Counted from the stretch's first letter, positions 1,312-20,716 are shown. The stretch: DNA of 20,716 bases from a virus (IMGVR_UViG_3300009494_000025:1-20716), one strand, 5' to 3'. Numbers and translations are program-made. Notes: generated by a model from the sequence alone, not told the origin.

Positions 1312-1319
1312 TTAACTGT

Positions 1320-1347: not shown

Positions 1348-1363
1348 AGCAAAGGATATAAAC

Positions 1364-1564: not shown

Positions 1565-1793
1565 AGCACCTAATTTTCGAGTGGATATTGCTAAAATTAC
1601 TTTTGAATTGCGTGATGGTGGGAAGTGGCAAGTATATCGCTATGTTAAATCTAAATACGGTACAGGGTACATTACTGAGACTATTGATCAAGATGAGAGA
1701 AATATGTTAATAACTAAATTAAGAAATCGAACGGATTTTGATGAAATAGATAATGATGCCGGATTTATTTATAACGGAATAATGGGTGAATAA
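1551..1793 (+). CDS. Hypothetical protein (80 aa)
   Basis: Starts at an ATG preceded by GAGGAGGAAGATC, a strong ribosome binding site made from the acidic tail codons of the upstream gene. The protein mixes beta-like segments (ITFELRDGGKWQVYRYV) with an acidic C-terminus. No domain is recognised. Its stop shares one base with the start of the PLD-type gene (TAATG), so the two are translationally coupled. Confidence 0.65.
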   Translation: MSGTRAPNFRVDIAKITFELRDGGKWQVYRYVKSKYGTGYITETIDQDERNMLITKLRNRTDFDEIDNDAGFIYNGIMGE

Positions 1794-4997: not shown

Positions 4998-5015
4998 TAA
5001 AAAAGGAGGCAACTC

Positions 5016-5450: not shown

Positions 5451-5800
5451 TGCCTTGTCTTTGTAATTATGCTCATTGTAATAAAACTCGTTGTGACACT
5501 GATTGTCGCACATGCCAGTATTATGTAGCTGGTAGGGGTAGTAGAGCATACGATTGTGGGCTACCGGCGGATGAGGATTGTATAGACCTCTTTCGTCGGT
5601 GCCCCGAATGTATTTGGCATATCCCCGATCGTAGATTCGTTGAGGATGATGATCCACGTACTAAACAAAAACGTTATCGTGATAATCACCCCCGTAGAGA
5701 AAACAAACGTAAAAAACTATGGCGTAATAAACTAAAAAATAAGCAAAAATTAGCTGAAAAAGCTAGATTACGCAGGGCACAAAAATGGATCAAGAATTAG
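5450..5800 (+). CDS. Cys-rich, basic-tailed zinc-binding protein
   Basis: The first 54 residues hold ten cysteines (C3, C5, C10, C15, C19, C22, C36, C44, C51, C54), enough for two zinc clusters. The rest (about residues 66-116) is a strongly basic helical tail. The layout suggests a nucleic-acid-binding accessory protein. It is coupled to the DUF669 gene (TAATG) and overlaps the primase-helicase start by 16 bases, so a replication role is plausible. No named family is recognised. Confidence 0.7.
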   Translation: MPCLCNYAHCNKTRCDTDCRTCQYYVAGRGSRAYDCGLPADEDCIDLFRRCPECIWHIPDRRFVEDDDPRTKQKRYRDNHPRRENKRKKLWRNKLKNKQKLAEKARLRRAQKWIKN

Positions 5801-8616: not shown

Positions 8617-8631
8617 TGTTAAAGGCTAAAG
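8593..8631 (+). repeat. 39-bp direct repeat, copy 1
   Basis: Identical over 39 bases to 8896-8934. This copy spans the last seven codons and the stop of the primase-helicase gene, and leads into the ribosome binding site (GGAG) of the next small gene. Confidence 0.97.
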
Positions 8632-8641
8632 GAGAAATACC

Positions 8642-8809
8642 ATGAGTAAAAAGAATCCAAGTGGTGGTAAAAGACCACAGGATGGTAAAGGAAAAGGTAA
8701 AGGTATGCCAGAAGGTCAGGGTGATAACGTAAATACTAATCCATGCCCTGACGATGGCCCTGGATATGGTAAGGGTGGTGGAAAGGGTAAAGGCAAAAAA
8801 CGAAAGTGA
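8642..8809 (+). CDS. Small Gly/Lys-rich basic protein (55 aa)
   Basis: A 55-residue frame preceded by AAAGGAGAAATACC. Almost half the residues are Gly or Lys, arranged as repeats (GKGKGKG and GGGKGKGKKRK), with a central N-T-N-P-C-P-D-D turn. Low-complexity basic peptides of this kind often coat nucleic acid, but no family is recognised. The gene lies exactly between the two 39-bp direct repeats, so it may have arrived as a cassette. The ribosome binding site and frame support translation. Confidence 0.65.
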   Translation: MSKKNPSGGKRPQDGKGKGKGMPEGQGDNVNTNPCPDDGPGYGKGGGKGKGKKRK

Positions 8810-8834
8810 TCTATTGTTTTTTCTAATTTTAGGG

Positions 8835-8854
8835 GAGTGCAGGGAAGGGCACTC
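8835..8854 (+). terminator. Weak hairpin after the small basic gene
   Basis: GAGTGC (8835-8840) pairs with GCACTC (8849-8854) around AGGGAAGG; the sequence that follows (AATTAT) is AT-rich without a T-run. It could be a weak terminator before the promoter at 8936. The rest of 8810-8895 holds no gene that I can support. Confidence 0.35.
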
Positions 8855-8895
8855 AATTATCTGACTAATGTTTACAGCGACATTTGTGTAAGATA

Positions 8896-8934
8896 AAAAG
8901 AACTAAAAGCCGTTTCTAATGTTAAAGGCTAAAG
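8896..8934 (+). repeat. 39-bp direct repeat, copy 2
   Basis: Exact copy of 8593-8631, but here outside any gene. It ends one base before the -35 box of the promoter at 8936, so promoter and small gene together look like an insertion or duplication next to the primase-helicase 3' end. Confidence 0.97.
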
Positions 8935-8935
8935 C

Positions 8936-8964
8936 TTGACGCGAAGCGCGCGCTGTGGTATAAT
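8936..8964 (+). promoter_or_regulatory. Strong sigma70-type promoter for the polymerase/Z gene cluster
   Basis: TTGACG (8936-8941), a 17-base spacer, then TATAAT (8959-8964) with an extended -10 (TGGTATAAT). The spacer carries a GCGCGCGC run and ends in GCTGTGG, and GAAAGCGAGAAC follows the -10. The promoter at 16029 shares GCTGTGGTATAAT and the AAAGCGA element. It precedes the membrane protein and polymerase genes. Confidence 0.85.
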
Positions 8965-9012
8965 GGTGATGAAAGCGAGAACATTTTAAAGTATAATTAA
9001 AAGGATAGTATA

Positions 9013-9321
9013 ATGGCTTATTTTACAGTATTTACAGCTTTAGCAGGGGCTTTTTTAACTGCTCAAAAAACTAATCGTATGAGGCGACATGGTTTTATAG
9101 TTTGGATTTATACTAATGGTTTTTGGATTTGGTATAACTGGGGCGATTGGGCAATGGTAGCGCAATTCAGTTTATTTTTCTTCTTGTGTTTTTTAGGTAT
9201 ATGGAACAATCAAGATGTTATCGGTGGACTTATTAAAAACGTCAAACACGGAGCACCATATCCAACACGCCCATATAGTAAAGAGGAACTTGATGAAAAT
9301 CTCAGAATCAATAAACCATGA
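9013..9321 (+). CDS. Small multi-pass membrane protein, PnuC-like half
   Basis: The 102-residue protein has two to three hydrophobic spans (about residues 1-18, 26-42, 47-65), rich in Trp and Phe (FIVWIYTNGFWIWYNWGDW). This pattern of a short span, a basic loop and Trp-rich spans recalls small phage membrane proteins related to one repeat of PnuC or semiSWEET transporters; that similarity is by eye only. The tail is polar and overlaps the polymerase start by 29 bases. AAAAGGATAGTATA precedes the ATG, and it is the first gene after the strong promoter. Confidence 0.65.
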   Translation: MAYFTVFTALAGAFLTAQKTNRMRRHGFIVWIYTNGFWIWYNWGDWAMVAQFSLFFFLCFLGIWNNQDVIGGLIKNVKHGAPYPTRPYSKEELDENLRINKP

Positions 9322-11218
9322 AGTCCCTACACTGGCACAGTTAATTCACGGCATTGATGAAGATGCTGAAATGCGAGAACAATTTTTTATGGGTGACGTA
9401 ATTAACATTGAATTATTAGAACCGGCACATAAAAAAGATCGGGTATATTTAGACCTTGAAACTACAGGTCTAGAGCCGTTCTTTGGTGATACTATACTTG
9501 GTATAGCATTGGGCGTGACTGATGTTTATGGTACTAGTTTCCATTCACGTTATTATCCATTTAGACACGATAATGGAAAAAATTTGAGATTAACCCATCA
9601 GCATCAAGTCATGTCTCATCTATTAACTTTAGACGAAACAGTAACGTGGGTATTCCACAATGCACGATTTGATTTACACTTTTTACGACGCATATTCCCT
9701 AAATTTGGTAAACGCATTTGGGATACATTAATGGCAGCCCATATAGCAAATGAGCACCATAAAAGTTTTGGTTTAAAGGCTTTAGGCGTAGAATACTTCG
9801 GGGAAAGTGCTACCGAAGAAGAAAGAGCTTTAGAGTTATTAGCCAGTAAAGGTAACATGCGTACACTTACTCCAGAAGAAGTGGCTCCTTATGCGTGTAA
9901 AGACGTTGAACTTACTTACTTATTAGATGATCAGTTCAATAAAGAACTAGCAGAACAAGGACTCACTGATTACGCACGTCGCCAAATGTCCTTGGTGGAT
10001 TTAGCTGAACAATTAGAAATGAAAGGATTACCACTCAAGATTAAACGTATGGAAAGGTTTGATAAAGAGGCACGAAAAGAAAAAATTCGATTACAGGCAA
10101 AAATTGCACGTATTACTGGTATTAGTGATTTTAATCCTAATTCTCCTGTACAAATTAAAAAGTTTACCGGGTGGAAAAGTACGGCTCAAGACATAGTGGA
10201 TGAAAGAATAGCTTTGGGTCAAGTGGAACCGGAATTTGTGGATTTTTTTGAAACACTTTTAGAATTCCGACACTGGACTAAGGTTAGTGGTACGTATTAC
10301 GCTAAATTCCGAGAACGTATGGATAAAGAAGAACGTGTACATCCCAATCTTAATCCAACCGGAACTGGAACTGGTAGATTTAGTTGTAGTAAGCCTAATA
10401 TGCAGTCTCTTCCTAGAGCGCGTTCAGCCGATGAAAAAATATATAAGGTACGTCAAACTATCGGGCCACGTAAAGATAATATATTAGTATTTATTGATTA
10501 TAAACAAGCTGAAATGCGTATTGCGGCCCATTTTGCAGAAGAAGAAACTGTACTAAAACTATTATGTGATGGACATGATTTACATTCATGGGTAGCTGAA
10601 GAAATATTTGGATCAGATGAACCATATATGCGCTGGATCGCTAAACGTATTAATTTTGGTACGGTATATGGTATTGGTGCTAAAGCATTATCAATTGATA
10701 AAGATTTACGTAAAATGTTGCGAGTAGTTCCTGATTTTACATGGAATCGTCAAATGGCATCTAAATTTTTAGCGATGTATCATAGAACCTTTCCGGGTTT
10801 TGGGCGATTACTTGCTATAGCACAAAATACAGCTAAACGTAGAGGACATATTTATTTATTTACTGGACGTTATAGACGGTATCCAGATAAAAGTGATCGG
10901 GCTACTCGTAAAGCCAGCAGTAATTTAGTACAAGGTACTGTAGCCGAAATTGTTAACGAAGCTATGTTACGTTGTGATATAGTATGTAAAAATGCCAAAA
11001 TTGAGCCGGGATTAATCTTCCAAGTACATGATGAACTTGTTTTCGAAATGCCTCGTAATCAAGCAATTAATATTGTACCAACATTGGTGGAACAGTGTGA
11101 AGATTGGGATTTTACTGTACCAATGCCTGTGGATGTGGCGGTTGGGATAGACAGTTGGGGTAAAAAGATAGACTTTGACAAGTTTGTTAAAAGTGAACAA
11201 AGGCGGATTAAAAAATGA
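9293..11218 (+). CDS. Family A DNA polymerase with 3'-5' exonuclease (DpoZ candidate)
   Basis: The 641-residue protein has all three exonuclease motifs: DLETTG (D54, E56), HNARFD and YACKD. The polymerase motifs are complete: TGRFSCSKPNMQSLPR, motif A DYKQAEMR (catalytic D402), motif B RWIAKRINFGTVYG and motif C VHDELVFE (D580, E581). There is no 5'-nuclease domain, as expected for phage family A enzymes. Motif B has Phe at the sugar-selection position. The start at 9293 is chosen because AAGAGGAACTTG precedes it; an upstream ATG at 9215 lies deep inside the previous gene. Its place just before the MazG-like, PurZ and HD genes matches the DpoZ polymerases of aminoadenine phages, but no residue visible here proves a preference for diaminopurine. 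Confidence 0.93.
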   Translation: MKISESINHEVPTLAQLIHGIDEDAEMREQFFMGDVINIELLEPAHKKDRVYLDLETTGLEPFFGDTILGIALGVTDVYGTSFHSRYYPFRHDNGKNLRLTHQHQVMSHLLTLDETVTWVFHNARFDLHFLRRIFPKFGKRIWDTLMAAHIANEHHKSFGLKALGVEYFGESATEEERALELLASKGNMRTLTPEEVAPYACKDVELTYLLDDQFNKELAEQGLTDYARRQMSLVDLAEQLEMKGLPLKIKRMERFDKEARKEKIRLQAKIARITGISDFNPNSPVQIKKFTGWKSTAQDIVDERIALGQVEPEFVDFFETLLEFRHWTKVSGTYYAKFRERMDKEERVHPNLNPTGTGTGRFSCSKPNMQSLPRARSADEKIYKVRQTIGPRKDNILVFIDYKQAEMRIAAHFAEEETVLKLLCDGHDLHSWVAEEIFGSDEPYMRWIAKRINFGTVYGIGAKALSIDKDLRKMLRVVPDFTWNRQMASKFLAMYHRTFPGFGRLLAIAQNTAKRRGHIYLFTGRYRRYPDKSDRATRKASSNLVQGTVAEIVNEAMLRCDIVCKNAKIEPGLIFQVHDELVFEMPRNQAINIVPTLVEQCEDWDFTVPMPVDVAVGIDSWGKKIDFDKFVKSEQRRIKK

Positions 11219-11442
11219 ACATAGGAATATGGGTAATTTTGGTGGTTGTAAGCTATATTTTAGGGTATCTATGTGGGCGTAAAGTGCATCAGATATATGC
11301 GTATTATCAAGGACGTGCAGATACTTTAGATAAGTGGAGTGATGTTTTACTGGATTGGCATCATGTTCAGGATATTCCGGATCCAAGAATTAACGATCCT
11401 GATATATTTTATGTAAAAAATCATCCACATATGCGCAGTTAG
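11215..11442 (+). CDS. Small membrane-anchored protein (75 aa)
   Basis: One N-terminal hydrophobic span (about residues 4-20, IWVILVVVSYILGYLCG) is followed by a basic, then polar cytoplasmic-type tail with HH and DPRINDPD motifs. The start overlaps the polymerase stop by ATGA. No family is recognised. Similar tiny anchored proteins in this window (16761, 17049, 17893) show this phage carries many of them. Confidence 0.65.
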   Translation: MNIGIWVILVVVSYILGYLCGRKVHQIYAYYQGRADTLDKWSDVLLDWHHVQDIPDPRINDPDIFYVKNHPHMRS

Positions 11443-11459
11443 AAAAAGGAACGATCGTT

Positions 11460-11876
11460 ATGAGATGGTATCGAATTAGTATAGCTATTGAACGCCAAGT
11501 CGGAGATGTTATGGCGACTGATGTAATTAATATGGATTCTATAGAGCCTGTACAATGGCAATGTGCGTTTGATGCATCTGGACAGACTTTATGGTTTTTT
11601 AAGCGAATGATTAGTTTATATCGTCAATTCATTCGTAAGAATGCCGACTATGCCACAGATCTTTCAAATTGGTATGAAGGATTCATGGAAAGTGGACTTC
11701 AAGGCATATATAATCGTACCACTGACAAGATGAATCGCATTAAAAATCATCTTCGTGGACAAAAGCTACATAATGAAAGTTTTTCAGATTCCTGTGGTGA
11801 TGCGGCAACTTATTTATTAATGTTAGACGAAGCCAATAATGAAGATGTACCTATACAAGGTACTAACTGGAGTTAA
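11460..11876 (+). CDS. MazG-like / DUF1599-type nucleotide pyrophosphohydrolase (MazZ candidate)
   Basis: The 138-residue helical protein carries the pattern of DUF1599 (Nmad1) and related MazG-like enzymes: RKNADYATDLSNW in the middle, then TTDKMNRIKNHL and a last acidic helix NESFSDSCGDAATYLLML, equivalent to the ES-x-x-DT-x-x-D-x-x-x-Y signature. MazG-like enzymes release pyrophosphate from (d)NTPs through clustered acidic residues binding Mg2+. In aminoadenine phages the MazZ enzyme turns dGTP into dGMP, the PurZ substrate; PurZ lies 0.4 kb downstream, which makes this gene the natural candidate. AAAAGGAACG precedes the ATG. The family call is by motif only, the dGTP role is inferred, and it may differ from MazZ of cyanophage S-2L. 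Confidence 0.62.
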   Translation: MRWYRISIAIERQVGDVMATDVINMDSIEPVQWQCAFDASGQTLWFFKRMISLYRQFIRKNADYATDLSNWYEGFMESGLQGIYNRTTDKMNRIKNHLRGQKLHNESFSDSCGDAATYLLMLDEANNEDVPIQGTNWS

Positions 11877-11879
11877 CTG

Positions 11880-12056
11880 GTGGTTAGAACACGAAAACCA
11901 ATTCCGTGTGCGATGTGTAATAAAATTTTTACACCTACTAAAGCTGCACAGTATCATTGTACACGATGTGATGTATTTCCTAAGAAAACTAAGTTTAATA
12001 GTTTTTATCGAAAACGGCTGGGGAAAAAAGGAGTAGAATTTCAATTTTTACATTAA
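11880..12056 (+). CDS. Short zinc-ribbon protein with GTG start (58 aa)
   Basis: A GTG codon seven bases after GGAG opens a 58-codon frame whose product has a classic zinc ribbon, C10-x2-C13 and C27-x2-C30 (PCAMCNKIF, HCTRCDVF), and a Lys/Arg-rich tail. The gene fills the gap between two well-supported genes, starting 4 bases after one stop and ending 12 bases before the next ATG. It is easily missed because of the GTG start. A nucleic-acid-binding role is inferred from the ribbon and basic tail. Confidence 0.75.
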   Translation: MVRTRKPIPCAMCNKIFTPTKAAQYHCTRCDVFPKKTKFNSFYRKRLGKKGVEFQFLH

Positions 12057-12067
12057 GGAGTTAACAG

Positions 12068-12289
12068 ATGGCAGCTATAGGAAAATACCGACGTACTTGT
12101 TTATCATGTCCTATGTGGCAAATGGATGAATCCGTTTCACCACATACGTGGGGCATATGTAAACGTATTGGAGAGCCTACTCAAGGTGATGGGAGTTGTA
12201 CACATCATCCGTGGAAAGATACTCCCAATTCCCCCAAAATAGCATATTCAAGGAGAAAGAAATCATGCAACGTGGACGTATCAATTTAA
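12068..12289 (+). CDS. Cys-rich small protein overlapping purZ (73 aa)
   Basis: TTAAGGAGTTAACAG precedes the ATG. Four cysteines, C11-x2-C14, C31 and C44, with Trp after them (CLSCPMW, GICKR, CTHHPW), form a pattern seen in small phage zinc-binding proteins. The last 25 bases overlap purZ, so the two genes are coupled. The function is unknown; the conserved neighbourhood in other purZ phages would show whether it belongs to the Z pathway. Confidence 0.65.
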   Translation: MAAIGKYRRTCLSCPMWQMDESVSPHTWGICKRIGEPTQGDGSCTHHPWKDTPNSPKIAYSRRKKSCNVDVSI

Positions 12290-13401
12290 CAATGGGATTG
12301 CAGTTTGGCAGTGAGGGCAAAGGATTACTTAGTGGTCACTTAGCTCTATTAGCTGCTGTAGATGTTGCAGTATGTGACTTTGGTCCTAATACTGGACATA
12401 CTTTTGTTGATGTTCGGGATGAAAAAACTATAGTTACACAATTACCGATGGCTGTAGTTAATCCCATGACCCAATTAGTAATAAGTAGTGGTGCCATTAT
12501 TCACCCACCAACATTACTTAAAGAAATTGAAGAAAATAATTGTGGACATCGGGTTACTATTGATCCCAATGCTGCTATAGTAACCGAAGAATGTCGGCAA
12601 TGGGAACAAAAACACTTGCCAAGAATTAGTTCTACCAAGAAAGGGGCCGGAGCAGCATTAGCATGGAAAGTTATGCGTCATCCAGATGCAAAGATTGCCG
12701 GAATGATTGATGAGCTTAAACCCTTTTTAGGTGAAGTTACTCCGTTGTTATGGAAAGCATGTTTGTCTAACAAAATGATTTTAGGGGAGCAAGGACAAGG
12801 ATTTTGGTTATCGAGAGATCACAGCAATATGTGGCCTTATTGCACTGGTCGCAATGTTACATCTATGGCATTTATGGACGGTTGTGGGCTTCCTAGTACA
12901 TTATTAGGCAATGTTTATGGGGCCCTGCGTACGTTTCCCATTCGTGTAGGCAATGATAAAGATAGTGATGGTACAGACATCGGATATAGCGGTAATGCCT
13001 TTGAAGGATCTAAGGAATTATCATGGGAAGATATTACCGTACAAAGTCGTTCTTCAAAGCCTATTCAAGAGACTACTACTGTTACTGGGAAAATACGACG
13101 AGTATTTACATTTTCGATGGATCAAGTAATACGTGCCATTAATATCAACGGAGTTACTGACATCTTTGTAAATTTCTTAAATTACTTAGATGATAAGGAT
13201 AGTAATGCCAGAGATATTAAAACATTGTCATCACCATCTTTACAATTCTTAGGTACTCTACAGATGACATTAAATCAACAATGCGTACGTATTGATGGGC
13301 GACCGTTACCCGTTATTACATTTGGTGGGGTAGGCCCGACGCATAAACACGTTATTGACATCAGCCCACAACATCTAGCGTTACATCTCCAGACACGATA
13401 A
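12265..13401 (+). CDS. purZ: PurZ: adenylosuccinate synthetase homologue for 2-aminoadenine
   Basis: The 378-residue protein belongs to the adenylosuccinate synthetase family: GLQFGSEGKG (11-20) is the P-loop-like motif, FGPNTGHT (39-46) holds the catalytic His45, GEQGQG and YCTGRNVTS follow, then RTFPIRVGN and TVTGKIRRVFTFS. PurA enzymes have GDEGKG; here Ser16 replaces the catalytic Asp. That Asp-to-Ser change marks PurZ enzymes, which use dGMP rather than IMP and join it to aspartate with ATP, giving the precursor of 2-amino-dAMP. The length (shorter than the roughly 430 residues of PurA) and the segments around YCTGRN and RRVFTFS also match phage PurZ. The start at 12265 follows AAGGAGAAAGAAATC. 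I am confident of PurZ rather than PurA; enzymatic activity is inferred. Confidence 0.92.
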   Translation: MQRGRINLTMGLQFGSEGKGLLSGHLALLAAVDVAVCDFGPNTGHTFVDVRDEKTIVTQLPMAVVNPMTQLVISSGAIIHPPTLLKEIEENNCGHRVTIDPNAAIVTEECRQWEQKHLPRISSTKKGAGAALAWKVMRHPDAKIAGMIDELKPFLGEVTPLLWKACLSNKMILGEQGQGFWLSRDHSNMWPYCTGRNVTSMAFMDGCGLPSTLLGNVYGALRTFPIRVGNDKDSDGTDIGYSGNAFEGSKELSWEDITVQSRSSKPIQETTTVTGKIRRVFTFSMDQVIRAININGVTDIFVNFLNYLDDKDSNARDIKTLSSPSLQFLGTLQMTLNQQCVRIDGRPLPVITFGGVGPTHKHVIDISPQHLALHLQTR

Positions 13402-13422
13402 AGATCGGATAAGTGTGATAAA

Positions 13423-14019
13423 ATGAATATCGGTCAAAAAAGTTTATTATTTGGGGCCCACCAGTTAATCCTACATTCGATACTGGTGGGCGTGGCATGG
13501 CGTAGATTATACTTACGCTGGCCTTTACCGTGGGAATGGGCATGTATTTTTATACATGACATTGGTTATTGGCATACTAATGATTTTACTAGTTTGGAGG
13601 CTCGAAATCACCCATTTTTGGGTGCACGAATAGCTAGACGATGGTTTGGTACTAAAGGTTTTGATTTAGTAGTTGGACATTCATCAAGGGCCGCTAAAAT
13701 CCATAAATTACCAATATCTAAAATGTGTGCAGCGGATAAAATGGCTAGTTTATTAATGCCACGACGGTTATATTTATGGTTAACACATAACACAGGGGAA
13801 TTACAACAATATCGAATATGGGCTGCTACCAATGGGTATACTTGGTATAACGATTTACATTTTTCGGGTGCACACAATTGGTATTATGGGTGTCTAATAC
13901 CTGAGTGTATAGCTAAAGCTAAAAAACATCTAGTATATATTAATATTATTCAATTTAATACAGCCCATGAGTACATACAAGGGGTGGCTAAACATGTATA
14001 CGCCGGAAGACATTGCTAA
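13423..14019 (+). CDS. HD-domain phosphohydrolase (DatZ candidate)
   Basis: The 198-residue protein has an HD metal site: H13 or H18, H45-D46 (FIHDIGYW), H63 (RNHPFLGARIARRWFG), H86 (VVGHSSRAAK) and D105 (CAADKMA). Two extra histidines between the HD pair and the last Asp suggest a two-metal site, closer to the YqeK and HD-GYP type than to the simpler arrangement reported for the S-2L dATPase. In purZ phages an HD enzyme (DatZ) next to purZ strips the triphosphate from dATP, so adenine is kept out of the DNA. Position 21 bases after purZ suggests this role, but substrate cannot be read from the sequence. The ribosome binding site is weak. Confidence 0.8.
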   Translation: MNIGQKSLLFGAHQLILHSILVGVAWRRLYLRWPLPWEWACIFIHDIGYWHTNDFTSLEARNHPFLGARIARRWFGTKGFDLVVGHSSRAAKIHKLPISKMCAADKMASLLMPRRLYLWLTHNTGELQQYRIWAATNGYTWYNDLHFSGAHNWYYGCLIPECIAKAKKHLVYINIIQFNTAHEYIQGVAKHVYAGRHC

Positions 14020-14263
14020 AGAATTACCGTCGTCGCTTAAACGCTTGGCAGATTTACCGGAGTTTAAACGTTTTGTAATTCGTTTAAATGATTTTATTGA
14101 TAACACCAATGATGATTTTGGTATATACGGTGTATCTATGTTATTTATGGCGGGACTTTTATTACATAATCAAGCCGAAGAAGAGCTTTATTGTAGTGAA
14201 TTAGCAACAATTAGTGTTACTGATCTGTTAGAAGAAGGTGATTTCGATGAAGATTATGATTAA
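13994..14263 (+). CDS. Hypothetical acidic protein (89 aa)
   Basis: Starts at 13994, where AAGGGGTGGCTAAAC precedes the ATG, rather than at the in-frame ATG at 13967, which lacks a ribosome binding site. It overlaps the HD gene by 26 bases and the next gene by 17. The protein is helical, with a short hydrophobic stretch (YGVSMLFMAGLLL) and an acidic tail (LLEEGDFDEDYD). No family is recognised. Confidence 0.65.
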   Translation: MYTPEDIAKELPSSLKRLADLPEFKRFVIRLNDFIDNTNDDFGIYGVSMLFMAGLLLHNQAEEELYCSELATISVTDLLEEGDFDEDYD

Positions 14264-14612
14264 TTTTATTCAAGAGCAAGATGAAACCAATCAGCAAGTT
14301 ATCTCCATGCTTCAAGCTTTGTTCGCCGTTGGCCTAAATTTAGGGCGTGAAACTGTAGATAACGATTTACATTTATTCCAGCTTAATGAATTCCGTTATT
14401 GTGGGCCGCATAGATTTATATCAGATTATGAAACACCATCACAACAACAGCATACATTTACGGAAAAAGTACACGTGTTATCCTGTCCGTTATGTGGTGC
14501 AGAAGTGCTAATTACTGATCATGAATACGCACGCGGGACTATTGTTACATGTAAATGTGAGTTACACTTCCGGTACGATGCTGGATTTAAATGGATATTG
14601 GTGTCATTATGA
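14247..14612 (+). CDS. Hypothetical zinc-ribbon protein (121 aa)
   Basis: Start chosen at 14247 with GAAGGTGATTTCG before it; a GTG at 14238 in frame is less likely. The N-terminal half is helical; the C-terminal half has a zinc ribbon with C80-x2-C83 and C102-x-C104 (SCPLCGAEV, VTCKCELHF). Ends in an ATGA overlap with the resolvase gene, so probably co-translated with it. The function is unknown, but the position between Z-pathway and recombination genes suggests DNA metabolism. Confidence 0.68.
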   Translation: MKIMINFIQEQDETNQQVISMLQALFAVGLNLGRETVDNDLHLFQLNEFRYCGPHRFISDYETPSQQQHTFTEKVHVLSCPLCGAEVLITDHEYARGTIVTCKCELHFRYDAGFKWILVSL

Positions 14613-15094
14613 TTATACACGCGTTTGATCCTGGGGAAACTACTGGAACGGTAACTGTAGATATACAACAAATGGATGATGGATATGTTATGCACCCTAT
14701 ATTATTTGGTGAAATAGAGTATACTAAAATGGCAAGTTATCTATCTGTTCAAATATTGCCGTTACTGGAACCTACACATATTATTGCTGTAGAACAATTT
14801 ATAATATATCCAGGTGGTAGGGCTTCAGGATGGGATCAAGCTAAAACTTCACAATTAATAGGGCAAATTAAAGCATTGGCACAACAGCAACAATGTGGGT
14901 ATGTTGAATATATGCCTGCTATTACTAAACGTACTACTAATACCCTAATTAATACTCTAATGTGTTCAGATGTAATTATTCCTAAATCTCGACATATTAG
15001 AGATGCATTCCGAGTAGCTATCACACATGTCCGTAAAACTGATATAAATTTTCATCAATGGCTAATTAGGGAAGAAGCTAAAAGGATACTGTAA
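14609..15094 (+). CDS. RuvC-like Holliday junction resolvase
   Basis: The 161-residue protein shows the RNase H-fold resolvase acidic set: D7 in IIHAFDPGETTG, E62 in IIAVEQF, and H129 plus D132 in RHIRDAFRVAITH. The order of these motifs and the length match phage RuvC-like proteins, which cut four-way junctions and clear branched DNA before packaging. The ATG at 14609 forms an ATGA overlap with the upstream gene and places the first strand directly at the N-terminus; an alternative start at 14591 adds six residues. Confidence 0.82.
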   Translation: MIIHAFDPGETTGTVTVDIQQMDDGYVMHPILFGEIEYTKMASYLSVQILPLLEPTHIIAVEQFIIYPGGRASGWDQAKTSQLIGQIKALAQQQQCGYVEYMPAITKRTTNTLINTLMCSDVIIPKSRHIRDAFRVAITHVRKTDINFHQWLIREEAKRIL

Positions 15095-15103
15095 AGATTA
15101 ATC

Positions 15104-15955
15104 ATGGCGAGATTACGAAGTCCAATAACGTGCTTTGGTGGTAAAAGTCGAATGGCAACTAGATTAATATCTTACTTTCCAGAACACAAGACTTATGTAG
15201 AAGTGTTTGGTGGCGGGGGTTCGGTACTCTTTGCTAAAGAGCCATCATTAGCAGATATTTATAACGATATTGATAGCACATTAGTGTCCTTTTTTAGGGT
15301 GTTAAGGGACGAAGAACAGTTTAAGGAATTTCATAAACTTGTAGAATTAACACCGTATTCACGTGAAGAATTTTACTTTTGTCGGGACCATTGGAAAGAC
15401 ACCCAAGATATGGTTACAAGAGTATTCCGATGGTTTGTGGTAGCCAGAATGAGTTTTGCGGGGGAAGTAGGCGGTTCTTGGAGTCATTCGGTAACAACAT
15501 CACGCCGTGGGATGTCTAAGGCAGTATCGGCATGGCTTTCGATAGTTGAGATGTTACCAGAAATACATGAAAGACTATCGAAGGTACAAATAGAACATCA
15601 AGATTTTCGAAGTTTAATTAAAGCATATGATAGAGTACAAACGTTTTTTTATTGTGATCCACCTTATTTATTAGAGACAAGACGTAGTGGTGGGTATGAT
15701 CATGAAATGTCAGACGCGGATCACATTGATTTATTGACGATTCTCAAACAAGTAAAAGGAATGGTATTAATTAGTGGGTATCCATCTGAACTATACTCTA
15801 AGATACTTGATGGTTGGGATTATAAAGAATGGGATAGAGTATGTAGCGCAGCGGGAAATACGGTAGGAACTGGAATATTGGGAGAAGGATCAGGAAAAGA
15901 GAAACAATCACGAATAGAAGCAGTATGGGCAAATTATACGCTGCCTAAAGATTGA
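15104..15955 (+). CDS. D12-class DNA N6-adenine methyltransferase (Dam-like)
   Basis: The 283-residue enzyme has the complete D12/Dam layout: N-terminal SPITCFGGKSRMA, S-adenosylmethionine loop EVFGGGGSVLFA (motif I, about 33-44), YNDID (53-57) and catalytic DPPY (185-188). The family transfers methyl from S-adenosylmethionine to N6 of adenine, often in GATC. In a phage it usually protects against restriction. Next to a Z-DNA gene set this is odd, because a fully substituted genome would have no adenine for it. It may act on 2-aminoadenine, on residual adenine, or on host DNA. The ribosome binding site is weak (AAAGGA about 18 bases upstream). Confidence 0.9.
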   Translation: MARLRSPITCFGGKSRMATRLISYFPEHKTYVEVFGGGGSVLFAKEPSLADIYNDIDSTLVSFFRVLRDEEQFKEFHKLVELTPYSREEFYFCRDHWKDTQDMVTRVFRWFVVARMSFAGEVGGSWSHSVTTSRRGMSKAVSAWLSIVEMLPEIHERLSKVQIEHQDFRSLIKAYDRVQTFFYCDPPYLLETRRSGGYDHEMSDADHIDLLTILKQVKGMVLISGYPSELYSKILDGWDYKEWDRVCSAAGNTVGTGILGEGSGKEKQSRIEAVWANYTLPKD

Positions 15956-16028
15956 TCTTTTTTATTGTTCCTTTTTCCTTTTTTTCTTCGCGCGAGGAAT
16001 ATCGACACAGAATAATTTAGAGAGAAAC

Positions 16029-16058
16029 TTGACACGAAATATGCAGCTGTGGTATAAT
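16029..16058 (+). promoter_or_regulatory. Consensus sigma70 promoter for Ros/MucR-like gene 2
   Basis: TTGACA (16029-16034), an 18-base spacer, TATAAT (16053-16058) with an extended -10 (TGGTATAAT). It shares GCTGTGGTATAAT with the promoter at 8936, and aligns almost end to end with the minus-strand promoter at 18925-18896. Upstream, 15956-16028 is T-rich with a short CGCGCG element and no gene. Confidence 0.9.
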
Positions 16059-16076
16059 TTTGGTATCAAAGCGAAA

Positions 16077-16092
16077 ACGCCGAATACGGCGT
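16077..16092 (+). promoter_or_regulatory. 5' leader hairpin before the ribosome binding site
   Basis: ACGCCG (16077-16082) and CGGCGT (16087-16092) form a perfect 6-bp stem with loop AATA, just before GAAGGAGAATCAC and the ATG. It could stabilise the mRNA 5' end or serve as an operator for autoregulation by the zinc-finger product. Confidence 0.55.
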
Positions 16093-16106
16093 GAAGGAGA
16101 ATCACA

Positions 16107-16508
16107 ATGGCACGTAAGAAATCCAAGGGGAAAGCCCCCACCCCGAAGCCCCCGACTAAGGCGGCTGCACCTAAGGCCCCTAAGGCCAAGAAGAAAAAGC
16201 AACTTGATCCGAATCTTCCAGTAGTCAAGTGTGTGATCTGCGGTCACGAGGCTCGGTGTCTAACCAGCCATCTCAAACATGAACATGACATGAAGGGAGC
16301 CGAGTACAAAGCGAAGTACGATAACGCTCCCGTGTTTGCCCCAGATATCTTGGAGAATCTCAAGAATCAGGGCAAGGACAGTTCCAGCAATCAGTGGAAC
16401 GGCATGATGAAATTACTCAAACATGCCGATGAACCCACTCGCAACGACATCATTGAGATGTTGGAAGAGGTCACTGGTATGACTATGGATGAGGCCATGA
16501 GTGCCTGA
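16107..16508 (+). CDS. Ros/MucR-like zinc-finger protein with basic tail, paralogue 2
   Basis: The first 37 residues are almost entirely Lys, Pro and Ala, like a histone H1 tail. Then comes a Ros/MucR finger, C42-x2-C45 with H55-x4-H60 (KCVICGHEARCLTSHLKHEH), and the MKGAEYKAKY helix. A C-terminal segment (APVFAPDILENLKNQGK onward) is shared with the minus-strand paralogue. The gene has a consensus promoter and GC-ending codons unlike its neighbours, which suggests strong expression or a foreign origin. Members bind AT-rich DNA as repressors or H-NS-like proteins; a high-abundance genome-binding role is inferred. Confidence 0.85.
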   Translation: MARKKSKGKAPTPKPPTKAAAPKAPKAKKKKQLDPNLPVVKCVICGHEARCLTSHLKHEHDMKGAEYKAKYDNAPVFAPDILENLKNQGKDSSSNQWNGMMKLLKHADEPTRNDIIEMLEEVTGMTMDEAMSA

Positions 16509-16566
16509 TGTCTATGGCTTGAAGTAACATTATTACCGTATCAAATAATATAAGGAGACCTTAATC

Positions 16567-16764
16567 ATGGATGAAAAATTCCAACCGCTTAATGACCATG
16601 TTCAATTCCGCGTTCAAGACAATGAATTGACATTGACAATGCCATTGACGGTACGAGGACAGTCCAAGAGTGGTAAAACCAATACCATCGTCAACTGCCA
16701 CGAGAAGATTCCTGGGACTAACTATACAGTCGGTCTCAACATCAATTCGCTAAAGGACACATGA
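16567..16764 (+). CDS. Hypothetical beta-rich protein (65 aa)
   Basis: ATAAGGAGACCTTAATC precedes the ATG. The 65-residue product alternates hydrophobic and polar residues (HVQFRVQDNELTLTMPLTV), suggesting a small beta sheet; SGKTNT is not a real P-loop. The stop overlaps the next start (ATGA). The GGAGACC ribosome binding site resembles those of the minus-strand genes. No family is recognised. Confidence 0.62.
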   Translation: MDEKFQPLNDHVQFRVQDNELTLTMPLTVRGQSKSGKTNTIVNCHEKIPGTNYTVGLNINSLKDT

Positions 16765-16997
16765 TTTTATGGCTGATTATTCTGGGGACAGTGATTGTAA
16801 TCATAATAATACTCTTCATAGCTATTGAAGCGTGGATAAGTCCAATAATGATGATGCAACCACCAAAACAGAATAAATCGACACAAGCCTATGAAACATG
16901 TACCTTATGTGGTGGATCTCGTGCAAAGACTGTCAAATCAAGTATTGGCCCGATATGCACAAAGTGTTTAAAGCAGCATGCCATTAAGGGCACATAG
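16761..16997 (+). CDS. Membrane-anchored zinc-ribbon protein (78 aa)
   Basis: An N-terminal run of about 20 hydrophobic residues (ILWLIILGTVIVIIIILFIA) anchors the protein; after a linker comes a zinc ribbon, C47-x2-C50 and C66-x2-C69 (CTLCGGSRAK, CTKCLKQH). The gene is coupled to the previous one by ATGA and ends just before a terminator. An anchored ribbon may tie phage DNA or a host protein to the membrane; this is inference. Confidence 0.68.
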   Translation: MILWLIILGTVIVIIIILFIAIEAWISPIMMMQPPKQNKSTQAYETCTLCGGSRAKTVKSSIGPICTKCLKQHAIKGT

Positions 16998-17001
16998 TAA
17001 A

Positions 17002-17029
17002 GTGGCCCCCTGTATGGGGGCCACATTTT
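17002..17029 (+). terminator. Intrinsic terminator (rightward)
   Basis: GTGGCCCCC (17002-17010) pairs with GGGGGCCAC (17016-17024) around TGTAT, followed by ATTTTC. The T-run is short but the stem is strong. It lies 5 bases after the stop at 16997. Confidence 0.75.
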
Positions 17030-17048
17030 CCCACTAGGAGACATGACA

Positions 17049-17156
17049 ATGGAAATCTTAAAAACAACTACTATAATTTTACTAATGGTTGGGGTATGTG
17101 CAATACCCGTGTTTTCCGTTGGAGCAATAATCTTATACGCACTAAAAGTAAGGTGA
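17049..17156 (+). CDS. Tiny membrane protein (35 aa)
   Basis: AGGAGACATGACA places the ATG at 17049 at good spacing; an ATG at 17043 in frame is only two bases from the AGGAG. The product is a single hydrophobic span (TTTIILLMVGVCAIPVF and onward) with a basic end (LKVR). Its translation start region is repeated 119 bases downstream at the next gene. It may be an antiholin or spanin-like accessory next to the transglycosylase, but that is a guess from position. Confidence 0.55.
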   Translation: MEILKTTTIILLMVGVCAIPVFSVGAIILYALKVR

Positions 17157-17161
17157 CTGAC

Positions 17162-17815
17162 ATGACAATGAAAATCTTAAAACCACAGATCTTATTTAAT
17201 CGTATGATTGCTGGATGTATGCTGTCTTTACTCATATTGTTGGCAATGGAACACTTAAATAACAGACTATTCCCAGTTGCGCCGACCGTGGTTATATTAA
17301 ATCACAGCATACACGCCAATGACATAATACCAGATGAAGCTGAATCTCTGGTTGAATGTACAAGTTGGATCGTGTATAACTTAATGACACCTACAGCCAA
17401 TGATCACCCGTATATTACTCCAGAGGAAGCATACACCGTAGCTAATGAGACAATTTATTGGATGCTCGAATATGATATCCCCTTGGATGATCTACATTAC
17501 GTATTATCCCTGTATTATGCTGAATCCAATTTCGATCCGTTAGCTAAAAACAGTAAATCAACCGCGTCTGGTATTGGACAATTATTATCCACGCATTGGG
17601 TGGAAGTTGGTGATCCTTTCGAGATTGAATTCAATATAAGTAAGTCATTTGAGCTTATCAATGCTGCCTATGCGCATAGTGAAGGTAGCCAATATGACAA
17701 ATGGATGACAGTGTACCTACAGTATTGTGGTACACGACAGGGTGCACGTAACGCAATGTATCAATATAACCGATTTGAACAGTTAATTGAGGATTGTCAA
17801 ATAGGACTTCCATAA
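17162..17815 (+). CDS. Signal-anchored lytic transglycosylase (SLT domain)
   Basis: The 217-residue protein starts MTMKILKPQ and has one N-terminal hydrophobic span (about residues 13-31, IAGCMLSLLILLAMEHL) acting as signal anchor. The SLT fold shows catalytic E121 in YYAESNFDP, then KSTASGIGQLL (about 131-141) and NAAYAH, the usual motif order of soluble lytic transglycosylases. It would cleave peptidoglycan in the periplasm or cell wall zone during lysis or entry. AAGGTGA precedes the start; an earlier ATG at 17096 lies inside the previous gene and is ignored. A rightward terminator follows. Confidence 0.85.
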   Translation: MTMKILKPQILFNRMIAGCMLSLLILLAMEHLNNRLFPVAPTVVILNHSIHANDIIPDEAESLVECTSWIVYNLMTPTANDHPYITPEEAYTVANETIYWMLEYDIPLDDLHYVLSLYYAESNFDPLAKNSKSTASGIGQLLSTHWVEVGDPFEIEFNISKSFELINAAYAHSEGSQYDKWMTVYLQYCGTRQGARNAMYQYNRFEQLIEDCQIGLP

Positions 17816-17839
17816 TCCTTGCATCTCCTCCTAGAGAGG

Positions 17840-17874
17840 CAGGCCGGGTCGTTCCACCCGGCCTGTTTATTTTA
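17840..17874 (+). terminator. Intrinsic terminator (rightward)
   Basis: CAGGCCGGGT (17840-17849) pairs with ACCCGGCCTG (17856-17865) around CGTTCC, followed by the T-rich TTTATTTT. It ends the transglycosylase transcript, yet a small gene with a good ribosome binding site follows. Confidence 0.85.
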
Positions 17875-17892
17875 CTTACAAGGAGAAACATC

Positions 17893-18021
17893 ATGGATTT
17901 AATCAAGATAGGTTGTAATAGTATGTTAATAATGTACATTGTGTTGGCGACATTTCTTACTGTAGCTTTGTTAAAATGTCTGTGGATACTAATACCGTGG
18001 GTAGCACGTTTAATATTTTAA
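17893..18021 (+). CDS. Tiny membrane protein (42 aa)
   Basis: AAGGAGAAACATC precedes the ATG. The product is nearly all hydrophobic (LIMYIVLATFLTVALLKCLWILIPWVA) and would span the membrane once or twice. It is the last rightward gene; only read-through of the terminator just upstream, or an unseen promoter, would express it. The function is unknown. Confidence 0.55.
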   Translation: MDLIKIGCNSMLIMYIVLATFLTVALLKCLWILIPWVARLIF

Positions 18022-18261
18022 TAACTTTGGCATTCTTTTTTCGCATTTTTAGGGTACCAATCTGTCGGGGTAAAGGTCTCCATCCTAGTCGGCTATAAAT
18101 AAGGCTCATCGCGTCCGTTAAGCGCGGTACGGTCGTCGCTGTTGAAAGCCGCAAGAACGCGACGACGGGCGCGGGACGTAACGCGTGATGCGCGTTGATA
18201 CGCGCGTCGGGCCTCGAGCACGCGGCATGGCGGTCAAAGGATATCAGATCCATACATATAT
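18022..18261. other. CpG-rich non-coding gap between convergent gene sets
   Basis: No convincing gene on either strand. From about 18110 to 18232 there are about 28 CpG steps in 123 bases. Inverted repeats are present: GTCGTCGC (from 18132) with GCGACGAC about 19 bases on, and AACGCG with CGCGTT near 18179-18195. It may be an origin, a protein-binding region or a structured RNA (tRNA-like features were looked for and not found). Confidence 0.6.
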
Positions 18262-18291
18262 AAAAAAGTTCCCCGCTGGTCGGCGGGGAAC
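18262..18291 (-). terminator. Intrinsic terminator (leftward)
   Basis: Read on the minus strand, GTTCCCCGC (18291-18283) pairs with GCGGGGAAC (18276-18268) around CGACCA, followed by six T (18267-18262). It ends the leftward transcript of the Ros/MucR-like gene at 18322. Confidence 0.92.
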
Positions 18292-18321
18292 GGCTAAGAA
18301 AGGTAGTTGGCGTCCGTCGGT

Positions 18322-18855
18322 CTATTGGACGGGTTGGTCTAACACTCCCTCTTTCACTTGAAGAAGCGTAAAACCGGTTTCTTTTTCGAGGGTCTTAATG
18401 GTGGCCTTGCGTTCTTCTTCACCGGCCCAGTTAAAGAGACGACAGAAGTGATTCCAGTCGTTGGCTGCCCCGGTTTTCCCTGAGTTTTTAAAGTTTTCCA
18501 ATAGATCAGGGGCGAAAACGGGGGCACCGTTGTAGGCGGCCTTGTACTCGGCCCCCTTCATGCTGTGTGCGTTCTTCAAGTGAGTAGTTAGGCATCGGGC
18601 CTCGTGTCCACAGATCTCGCACTTGACTAATGGTAAACCGTCGTTCCGCTTGGCGGCTCTTCGGTCTCTCTTGCGGGTGGCTTTGGTGCCGGTCTTGGAA
18701 GCGGCTACTGCCTTCTTCATTTCGGTGGCTGAGACTACATCTGCCAGAGTAGTCTCAGGGGCCGGTTCTGATCCCGGAATATCTTTATTACTCCGAGGGC
18801 GAGAAGGTGTCGGCTTTGCCTTTTTCTTTGATGAACGAATTTTTGTATCTGTCAT
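18322..18855 (-). CDS. Ros/MucR-like zinc-finger protein with long basic tail, paralogue 3
   Basis: The 177-residue protein has a Lys/Arg/Pro-rich N-terminal tail (about residues 5-24), a second basic stretch (RKRDRRAAKR) and then the finger C79-x2-C82, H92-x4-H97 (KCEICGHEARCLTTHLKNAH) with MKGAEYKAAY. The C-terminal part (APVFAPDLLENFKNSGKTG and onward) closely matches the copy at 16107-16508. It has its own consensus promoter, nearly identical to that of the plus-strand copy, and a strong terminator, so it is a self-contained unit. CAGGAGACCGACC precedes the ATG. Confidence 0.87.
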   Translation of the reverse strand: MTDTKIRSSKKKAKPTPSRPRSNKDIPGSEPAPETTLADVVSATEMKKAVAASKTGTKATRKRDRRAAKRNDGLPLVKCEICGHEARCLTTHLKNAHSMKGAEYKAAYNGAPVFAPDLLENFKNSGKTGAANDWNHFCRLFNWAGEEERKATIKTLEKETGFTLLQVKEGVLDQPVQ

Positions 18856-18895
18856 GGTCGGTCTCCTGCGCGCGTAGCGCGTGTTTGATATTAAA

Positions 18896-18925
18896 ATTAT
18901 AACATACGACGCATATTTCTGTCAA
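18896..18925 (-). promoter_or_regulatory. Consensus sigma70 promoter (leftward) for Ros/MucR-like gene 3
   Basis: On the minus strand TTGACA (18925-18920), an 18-base spacer and TATAAT (18901-18896). GAAATATGC in the spacer and TATAATTTT..TATCAAA after it are shared with the promoter at 16029. Between start site and ribosome binding site lies a GCGCG-rich inverted element (CGCGCTACGCGCG). Confidence 0.9.
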
Positions 18926-18960
18926 GTGTTTATTTGCCAATCCCTACACTACACTCCAAA

Positions 18961-19323
18961 TTATCCTTCTTGTGAGTCGGCATGTAGGTCGGCTTCATGA
19001 CGAAATTGCCGTTGTAACGTCTTGACGGCCCCGAATGGGTCACTATTGTCGTTCCAATCGTCATCTTCCAAGAAGGATGAAACGACTAATAATGATTCGG
19101 TCAAGGTGTCCATCCATATTGTGAATAAATCAACTTGATCTTTGATTAATGCGGCCCCGGCATTACCGATGCATGCCCATGCGGCCCATAGTTTACCCTC
19201 AATGACGGCTTGTGCGTCGGCACAATAGTCATCTTTGGCGGTCACATAGTCGTACGTGATCAAAGATAACCGCTTGTATTCATCTGTAAGCAATGAGTGT
19301 AACACTTCAAAGTTATTATCCAT
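18961..19323 (-). CDS. Hypothetical helical acidic protein (120 aa)
   Basis: Start chosen at 19323, where AAGGATGCCAACG gives a ribosome binding site; an ATG nine bases upstream sits directly on the AAGG. The product is helical with an acidic loop (FLEDDDWNDNSDPFG) and a Trp/Ala-rich core (GKLWAAWACIGNAGAAL). It overlaps the upstream gene by 8 bases and is followed by the promoter of the zinc-finger gene. No family is recognised. Confidence 0.68.
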   Translation of the reverse strand: MDNNFEVLHSLLTDEYKRLSLITYDYVTAKDDYCADAQAVIEGKLWAAWACIGNAGAALIKDQVDLFTIWMDTLTESLLVVSSFLEDDDWNDNSDPFGAVKTLQRQFRHEADLHADSQEG

Positions 19324-19885
19324 CGTTGGCATCCTTGTCGATCGTGATTAATTTAGTAATGAAATCCGAACGTGATACCTGTTCGTCTAATTCCTTATAC
19401 GCTATCACGTCGGCGGAATCAAGGGTATTGTGGGCGGCTGCGCGGGCGGCTAATGGGGTAACCTTACGGTCTCCACCACAAGTCCAACATAGCGCGTGGA
19501 GGTTGTCGGCCCCTTTACAGGGTAATTCTCCTTTACCGTCACACGTTGGGCAAGTTTCAATTGCGTCGGCCCGATTGTCTACCCACACGTCCATGATGAT
19601 AACTCCATCATCGGTTTCACGGTGGGTTATAATTATTTCTATCCCATAGTCGGCACTCATTTTTCGTAGCCACTCCTGCATGTCGTCGGCTATTAATTCT
19701 GCGAAGTCGCGATTCATCATTGGGATGATGAAATGTGCTGGTTGGTCCTTGTGTATTACGGCTCCAAGGGCGGCTGAGATGATTTGTGCGTGGTCGCTGT
19801 CAGTCCATTCATGCCCTTCTTTTTGAGTGATGATAACAGTGTTCCTAGTGACCATTGTAAATAGGTCCTGATTGGTAATCTCCAT
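19316..19885 (-). CDS. Hypothetical protein with DnaJ-type zinc cluster (189 aa)
   Basis: CAAGGAGACCGACAA precedes the ATG at 19885; an in-frame ATG at 19969 has no such site. The C-terminal half carries five cysteines, C112-x2-C115, C123, C133-x2-C136 (CPTCDGKGELPC, CWTCGG), like the C-x-x-C-x-G-x-G repeats of the DnaJ zinc domain. There is no J domain. The N-terminal part is mixed alpha/beta. Such stand-alone clusters occur in phages and may bind unfolded protein or RNA; the function is unknown. Confidence 0.72.
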   Translation of the reverse strand: MEITNQDLFTMVTRNTVIITQKEGHEWTDSDHAQIISAALGAVIHKDQPAHFIIPMMNRDFAELIADDMQEWLRKMSADYGIEIIITHRETDDGVIIMDVWVDNRADAIETCPTCDGKGELPCKGADNLHALCWTCGGDRKVTPLAARAAAHNTLDSADVIAYKELDEQVSRSDFITKLITIDKDANDG

Positions 19886-19935
19886 TTGTCGGTCTCCTTG
19901 TTTTGATTTGTAATGTGTAATGTGACGCTCATGTG

Positions 19936-20046
19936 TTACATTCCCCAGTCGCTTACGCGGTCGGCGCAAGCGTTGATTGTGAAAAGGGCGGCTATAGCTT
20001 CGTGTACATGTACTGCTGCCATAGCTTGATCATTCTTGTCGTCCAT
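19936..20046 (-). CDS. Tiny hypothetical protein (36 aa)
   Basis: AAAGGAGGAAACCCAT, one of the best ribosome binding sites here, precedes an ATG opening a 36-residue frame, mostly Ala, Asp and Val with one Cys (MDDKNDQAMAAVHVHEAIAA). The stop is 50 bases before the next start. It is too short to assign. The strong site and the clean spacing argue that it is translated. Confidence 0.6.
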   Translation of the reverse strand: MDDKNDQAMAAVHVHEAIAALFTINACADRVSDWGM

Positions 20047-20185
20047 ATGGGTTTCCTCCTTTGGGCTTTTAAGCCCTATTTTTAGGGTGCTAGTTAATCG
20101 GTTTCCTTGACTGCCCCAGTATAGGTGGAACAGTCGGCGAAGTCGTTCCTTGGAAGATCGGCCTATTGGTCGGTCAATCGGTTAG
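20047..20185. other. Intergenic leader with repeated GTCGG and CCGATTAACTAG-like sequence
   Basis: No gene is supported. On the plus strand it holds GTCGG at 20133 and 20169 (two more follow at 20193 and 20201, inside the adjoining gene), related AGTTAATCGG / GGTTAGTTAACTAG elements near 20091 and 20180, and the hairpin at 20063. Confidence 0.5.
20063..20083 (+). terminator. Rightward-facing terminator-like hairpin upstream of a leftward gene
   Basis: GGGCTT (20063-20068) pairs with AAGCCC (20071-20076), followed by TATTTTT. Read leftward it sits just before the AAAGGAGG of the 36-aa gene, where CCCTA-AAAA-TAGGG can form an alternative stem. Confidence 0.5.
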
Positions 20186-20611
20186 TTAACTAGTCGGATC
20201 GTCGGCGGTTTCAAGAAGGGCTGATACGAACTCTAATAAGACGGCTTCGGCGATCTCTGTGTATGCGGCATCAAAGCGTTCTTGGAAGACGGTTATCGCG
20301 TGGTCGTTGGCATCTTCAATAGCTGCCATGATGTTGGCAGCTTTTTTGACGGCTGCCTGAGCTTTCTTGTAGCTGTTGGTAGCGGCGGCGATTGTGTTAC
20401 TACTGCCGTAGCCATCGTGGTCACCAGCTCGAAAGGTGTGGGTCTCGGCGGCTTGAGCGTGTGTTACGAGGGCAGCTCGGTCTGTTTCGATGTCGGCTGT
20501 GATGTCCTCTTTCAAGGTAGCAATCATGTCGGCTAATCGATCGCATGCTGCATCGGCCTGATTGGCGGCCTGGGCGGCGTGCCATGTTCCTTGTCGTTCG
20601 TTGCGTTTCAT
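20186..20611 (-). CDS. Ala-rich helical protein (141 aa)
   Basis: TAAGGAGACCGAC directly precedes the ATG. About a quarter of the residues are Ala (34 of 141) and the heptad-like spacing (AAQAANQADAACDRLADMIA, then KKAQAAVKKAANIMAAI) suggests a long coiled coil or helical bundle. No membrane span or catalytic motif is visible. It is the first leftward gene in the window and may share a transcript with the following ones. GC-ending codons (GCC, GAC, GTC) differ from the rightward genes. Confidence 0.72.
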   Translation of the reverse strand: MKRNERQGTWHAAQAANQADAACDRLADMIATLKEDITADIETDRAALVTHAQAAETHTFRAGDHDGYGSSNTIAAATNSYKKAQAAVKKAANIMAAIEDANDHAITVFQERFDAAYTEIAEAVLLEFVSALLETADDPTS

Positions 20612-20625
20612 GTCGGTCTCCTTAT

Positions 20626-20648
20626 GCCCATTGTGGGCGGTTTTTTTT
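20626..20648 (+). terminator. Rightward-facing terminator-like hairpin in the leader
   Basis: GCCCA (20626-20630) pairs with TGGGC (20634-20638) around TTG, then GG and eight T (20641-20648). A second GGGCGGTTTTTT element without a stem occurs at about 20674-20685. Both face against the adjoining leftward gene. Confidence 0.55.
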
Positions 20649-20716
20649 GGTTGTGATGCTTTGGCCTTCTTAGGGCGGTTTTTTAAGGTGCCTGTGTGTC
20701 GGCTTTTCGGTCGGCC

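Follow-up and report, generated by a model that had tools for sequence, protein, structure and literature searches.

The window analysed here, 20716 bases in length, spans an entire linear IMG/VR record, a contig of an uncultured phage. Its last part (18064-20714) differs from the rest in both composition and gene direction: G+C lies at about 0.49-0.52, against 0.36-0.42 in the rest of the window, third-position G+C is 0.52 against 0.27, and all clear genes of the region point leftward (Table 1). This GTCGG-rich module reaches the end of the contig, and the array that we describe below is still running where the record stops. Three of the leftward start codons are preceded by an exactly repeated AGGAGACCGAC, a conserved and asymmetric word that can be classed as a start-associated sequence. 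Comparison of the small leftward proteins with Pfam and PHROGs returned the zinc finger and otherwise weak hits only, and no p6-like protein was seen in what is an incomplete contig. A single-sequence AlphaFold2 model of the product of 20186-20611 is a two-helix hairpin (mean pLDDT 75), for which a fold search gave nothing at E <= 0.001.

The record encodes two clear members of the Ros/MucR type of zinc-finger protein (16107+ and 18322-) and a weaker one (2512+). The products of 18322-18855 (-) and 16107-16508 (+) are paralogues, 60% identical over 91 aa, and the latter passes the PF05443 cut-off with 35.0 bits. A second perfect TTGACA-18-TATAAT promoter, also with TG before the -10, is located at 16029-16058 (+), and its flanks resemble those of 18896-18925 (-). 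The two perfect promoters drive the two paralogues on opposite strands, and this pairing suggests a duplicated, self-regulated gene.

Table 1. Features of the leftward module and of the lattice that runs through it.
Feature	Coordinates	Strand	Remarks
First lattice	18064..19966	+	16/17 GTCGG within ±1 of one phase (CGG position mod 12 = 6 ±1)
Two GTCGG copies beyond the terminator, phase 6	18064..18092	+	same phase as copies at 18316-18332 before the terminator
Intrinsic terminator of the leftward unit	18268..18291	-	GTCGG at 18279 is part of the loop
Ros/MucR-type zinc-finger gene	18322..18855	-	PF05443 E=2.8e-5, 24.6 bits, just below the 25.4 cut-off
AGGAGACCGAC leader	18857..18867	-	before 18322-18855; exact repeat
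Promoter TTGACA-18-TATAAT of the zinc-finger gene	18896..18925	-	12/12 consensus, TG before -10
ORF, 123 aa	18961..19332	-	no family match
ORF, 189 aa, with CxxC...CxxC stretch	19316..19885	-	
AGGAGACCGAC leader	19888..19898	-	before 19316-19885; exact repeat
ORF, 36 aa, with AAAGGAGG leader	19936..20046	-	contains GCC-GAC at 19960
Nine consecutive in-register 12-mers, phase 11, noncoding run	20095..20199	+	rows-of-12 display
ORF, 141 aa, Ala-rich	20186..20611	-	no family match
Lattice block, phase 10, through ORF 20186-20611 and its leader	20202..20645	+	block phases, rows-of-12 display, codon test
AGGAGACCGAC leader	20612..20622	-	directly before ATG of 20186-20611; on lattice; exact repeat
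Lattice block, phase 0, running off the contig end	20672..20716	+	block phases; 20676, 20700, 20712

On the + strand of 18064-20714, GTCGG occurs 26 times and CCGAC not once, while the remainder of the window (1-18063) holds eight copies of each; these exact counts agree with those of the sequence-only reading, which had put the remainder at fewer than ten. Dinucleotide shuffles of the region gave 5.5±2.3 copies in the enriched orientation (at most 16 in 1000 shuffles) and 1.2±1.1 in the other. The excess of GTCGG is therefore real, whereas the absence of CCGAC is unremarkable and not in itself significant. Among 489 comparison windows of 2651 bp, taken from two Microbacterium phages and from contigs of other phages with PurZ, a 5-mer strand difference of at least 26 was found in six, and in none of the 158 with a G+C of 0.45-0.55. 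Against these windows of other phages, the GTCGG skew is exceptional for its G+C. A separate skew, among the largest for 5-mers outside the module, is found at 13251-15900, where TTATT numbers 21 vs 1 on the + strand.

The 26 copies are spread over coding and noncoding DNA. Twelve are GCC-GAC (Ala-Asp) codon pairs, eleven of them in four ORFs and one in the 36-aa ORF, and two more (18809 and 20193) are coding in another frame; the identical AGGAGACCGAC leaders supply only three, and nine fall in other noncoding DNA, including the one in the terminator loop. Coding copies thus number 14, against 8.7 in synonymous shuffles, and noncoding copies 12, against 1.8 in dinucleotide shuffles. The most over-represented 5-mer of the noncoding DNA is CCGAC.

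The copies are also regularly spaced. Of the 25 intervals between neighbouring copies, 14 are exactly divisible by 12, where 2.1 would be expected, and GTCGG can be placed together with its degenerate forms (GACGG, GGCGG and GTC alone) on a 12-bp lattice. In the first lattice (18064-19962) the best period is 12.008, with an R of 14.99 out of a possible 17; 2000 relocations over periods 5-40, with coding copies kept in their frame and ORF, reached at most 12.00. The phase count of 16/17, sustained over 1.9 kb, compares with a maximum of 13/17 in 20000 relocations that kept ORF and frame. One phase jump occurs between 19962 and 20099, after which a second lattice (phases 10, 11 and 0) accommodates eight of the final nine copies to within 1 bp. 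Five 12-mers of the 20095-20199 run contain CGG (at 20099, 20135, 20159, 20171 and 20195), and the run adjoins and slightly overlaps gene 20186-20611. Overall, the lattice passes through five leftward ORFs, the three start leaders and noncoding DNA.

Words other than GTCGG follow the same register. CGG pairs no more than 150 bp apart are separated by multiples of 12 in 114 cases, against 51.6±9.2 and a maximum of 86 in 1000 synonymous-plus-dinucleotide shuffles, and a look-elsewhere test that took in every 3- to 5-mer and periods 5-40 gave a z of 8.5, against 4.6±0.7 (maximum 7.0) in 60 shuffles. In noncoding DNA only, 8 of 21 TCGG pairs are in phase (random relocation mean 1.9, P=0.0019). GTC without GG, which was not used in setting the phase, is in phase in 18 of 40 cases (3.3 expected); CCG, the opposite-strand word, is not in phase with the lattice. 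A leave-one-block-out profile recovers the chosen register in all nine blocks, and in six of eight transitions the phases of neighbouring blocks are within 1 bp of each other. The block phases were picked on CGG, and their significance rests on the shuffles, relocations, leave-one-block-out tests and unused words. Among in-phase units, 64/134 match GTCGGC at four or more of the six positions, and 6 of the 12 columns per unit are informative, the other six being at background. The repeated unit is a degenerate hexamer (GTCGGC on +, GCCGAC on -) with a single orientation, and its 12-bp lattice extends through 2.6 kb or more of coding and noncoding DNA. This lattice is not free of irregularities: it has gaps of ~100 bp and wobbles of 1 bp, and it is incoherent at 18100-18300. 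Within that stretch, 18100-18230 is noncoding and rich in CG dinucleotides, with a G+C of about 0.6; a search of 18030-18262 for structured RNA or tRNA gave no Rfam or ARAGORN match, and folding was no better than in shuffles.

The register can also be followed in the choice of codons. With the amino acids fixed, C-ending synonymous codons cluster in two of the four codon-index classes in all four longer leftward genes (P of 0.022, <3e-4, <3e-4 and 7e-4; for ORF 20186-20611, P=0.0007). This periodicity is present at modulus 4 and absent at 2, 3, 5 and 6; modulus 8 contains 4, and at modulus 7 two of the genes reach a P of about 0.03. The same test on 12 rightward genes produced one P of 0.044 and otherwise values >0.3, none of them convincing. 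In 19316-19885 the positions of Ala and Asp are themselves 4-periodic (P=2.5e-4 and 7.5e-4), which we read as a DNA signal pressing on the protein. The strength of the lattice is such that it shifts the use of synonymous codons and, in a single gene, that of amino acids as well.

Single orientation, six read and six free bases in every 12, and coherence over kilobases suggest a polar protein array on DNA. We tentatively propose, at a probability of roughly 0.4, that the lattice is a polar array of putative sites at 12-bp steps for a DNA-coating or DNA-wrapping protein, comparable to phi29 p6 but encoded in the sequence, which would form a filament or wrap of kilobase length on the leftward module. 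Each 12-bp unit, with 6 bp read and 6 bp free, would then be the step of one protomer, and the module would be assembled into an extended nucleoprotein array through which its transcription or early replication is controlled. A step of 12 bp is longer than the 10.5 bp of a helical turn, so that successive contacts would shift round the helix and produce a right-handed wrap like that of phi29 p6. Codons, and even residues, may have been chosen to keep the docking sites in register through the phage's own genes.

The phi29 p6 protein offers the nearest likeness, as its monomers touch DNA every 12 bp in a long regular array on phage DNA that is linked to early transcription and replication (PMC10899789). 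However, p6 binding has been described in terms of minor-groove bendability, with no fixed motif and no sequence lattice cut into genes. Here the 12.008-bp lattice is a feature of the sequence, and a protomer step of that length is putative. Head-to-tail filaments of winged-helix proteins (BldC, lambda Xis, RdfS) likewise use polar direct repeats, BldC placing about one protomer per helical turn (PMC11963761), but these arrays are short, with a spacing near one B-DNA turn, and do not extend for kilobases through ORFs; RdfS has no consensus. Mycobacteriophage stoperators and start-associated sequences are asymmetric repeats, mostly in one orientation, and the start-associated copies adjoin start codons (PMC3203893, PMC9283540), but they are isolated sites without a fixed-step lattice within coding sequence. 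Candidates for the lattice-binding protein are the three Ros/MucR-type zinc fingers (16107+, 18322- and the weaker 2512+). DNA-organising zinc-finger proteins of this family are encoded at the lattice itself, and family members assemble into DNA-organising rings, most commonly with 12 or 10 protomers (PMC11662661). Characterised members favour AT-rich DNA, whereas the lattice core is GC-rich, and the literature consulted describes no 12-bp site lattice for them.

Relatives of the module were sought by several routes. Protein and profile scans of viral contigs (zinc-finger protein, PurZ, DNA polymerase and primase) and scans of genome contigs with the zinc-finger pair found no locus that shares it; blastn and tblastn against annotated phages gave no relative with the leftward module, and among the matches listed in a scan for the leader AAGGAGACCGACATG, no contig had two copies. 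A pattern scan for four RTCGG at 12-bp steps returned at least 120 matches, and those examined closely were within-gene repeats, except for IMG/VR contig IMGVR_UViG_3300028569_000044 (L111). At 300-1740 this contig has a noncoding 12-bp array of TAATTGA+N5 (71 copies in the locus vs 7 on its other strand), which resembles the present lattice in step, single orientation and the combination of a conserved and a variable part, but is noncoding and almost perfectly tandem, has a different core and, found as it was via a 12-bp-step pattern search, is not an unbiased parallel. The same contig has an ORF at 4910-6079 that reads as TnpB-like from its sequence. When 326 loci (3.66 Mb) were scanned for any dispersed k-mer period of 7-30, the only clear 12-bp cases were the present window and L111. 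In Microbacterium phages the tape measure region (L088:1326-5300 and L089:2651-5300) has TGGA with a period of 33 bp, which reflects an 11-residue protein repeat and is suited as a positive control for the period scan.

Points against the array reading are that these scans turned up no relative with the array, that the lattice has gaps, wobbles and a jump, and that the characterised members of the Ros/MucR family have a preference for AT-rich DNA. The usual view of phage genome-organising proteins is that they recognise the shape of DNA in a loose way. If the array reading is true, a fixed-step word over several genes would amount to a second code, with visible selection at synonymous sites. 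An open-access literature search of limited coverage found no known site array overlaid on genes, and the claim of novelty is provisional. The lattice gives a directly testable binding pattern, with a defined hexamer, step, polarity and boundaries, and it illustrates that a plain k-mer skew can conceal a signal in the register which goes unnoticed by standard repeat finders.

The signal could instead act in RNA, where GCCGAC at every 12 nt of the leftward transcripts would be read by an RNA-binding protein or ring, for instance in the regulation of translation, decay or termination. Every copy has the orientation of the transcript, and the array covers the start leaders and ends near the 3' end of the leftward unit. 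We nonetheless consider this unlikely. The two copies beyond the terminator match the phase of the earlier ones, and this agreement points to DNA, more than to RNA, as what is recognised. A flexible RNA, for its part, would not require a spacing of exactly 12.0 nt kept up for 1.9 kb.

Rather improbable is also a lattice that records history instead of function, as the relic of a long, decayed 12-bp tandem repeat. Such an origin would fit the exact 12-bp steps, and 12-bp tandem arrays do occur in phages, as in L111. However, in the non-core columns neighbouring units are 0.284 alike, against 0.268 for all pairs, and columns at background in which neighbours are no closer than distant units argue against a decayed repeat; moreover, Tandem Repeats Finder detects no 12-bp array here, and one of the genes under the lattice, that of the zinc-finger protein, has a clear paralogue. 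The class of tandem repeats and iterons was rejected on similar grounds, as units are not alike over their whole length (6/12 informative columns, no Tandem Repeats Finder array).

Ordinary composition, by which a GC-richer module, GCC and GAC codons, Ala- and Asp-rich proteins and a common ribosome-binding leader would raise CCGAC unaided, is very unlikely to suffice. The codon bias is considerable, GCC making up 65% of leftward Ala codons against 17% in rightward genes, and GAC 62% of Asp codons against 19%. The synonymous-codon shuffle that had been put forward as a check recovers 8.4±2.0 of the 13 copies in the four larger leftward ORFs, and with them most of the coding share, but reproduces neither the noncoding share nor the 12-bp register. 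Composition yields no such register in synonymous positions, in noncoding DNA or in genes in different frames, and as a full explanation it is refuted by the CGG-pair, codon, noncoding and relocation tests, although it still contributes. The sequence-only reading was hence right to regard codon use alone as insufficient, and also to see a contribution from GCC-GAC codons and GGAGACCGAC leaders, which account for 12 codon pairs and 3 leader copies. Codon use, Ala-Asp dipeptides and leaders are contributors to the excess without being its cause, because the lattice spans ORFs, leaders and noncoding DNA and because synonymous codons are periodic in the leftward genes.

A spacing imposed by the proteins, as Ala-rich helices with a 4-residue repeat, is highly improbable: gene 19316-19885 does show 4-periodic Ala and Asp, and part of the 12-bp excess survives synonymous shuffles, but synonymous positions are periodic with the amino acids fixed, leaders and gaps share the lattice, and the synonymous-codon and noncoding tests refute protein periodicity as the sole cause. 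An orientation-biased recognition word (Type III restriction evasion, as in T7/EcoP15I, or a Chi-like, packaging or DNA-uptake word) is scarcely credible: GTCGG is 5 bp long and asymmetric, with A on one strand only and one orientation in the module, but the rest of the window has it eight times in each orientation, its zero on the other strand is expected by chance, and no such word predicts enrichment on a 12-bp grid. Restriction evasion was rejected as the single orientation is not genome-wide, Chi-like or KOPS-like polar words as the copies are confined to a grid at 18.06-20.7 kb and not spread unspaced over the replicon, and a packaging signal as it predicts no strict 12-bp grid. Among the four functions guessed at earlier, a protein-binding motif is therefore the best, while Chi-like, packaging and replication-polarity roles are unsupported, as a strict 12-bp grid limited to a single leftward module of 2.7 kb would follow from none of them.

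Elsewhere in the contig, 12271-14019 (+) and 9332-11218 (+) encode a PurZ-like 2-aminooxy adenylosuccinate synthetase (phrog_1211, E=6.7e-52), an HD-domain protein and a family A DNA polymerase, on which grounds the phage probably makes 2-aminoadenine (Z) DNA. A D12-class adenine-specific DNA methyltransferase is encoded at 15104-15955 (+) in this phage, which probably swaps adenine for 2-aminoadenine. A PD-(D/E)XK nuclease and an AAA_24 ATPase (3122-4997, +) lie ahead of a primase-helicase with an MCM-like P-loop (5785-8616, +), and this order of nuclease, ATPase and primase-helicase resembles that of Microbacterium Krampusvirus phages.
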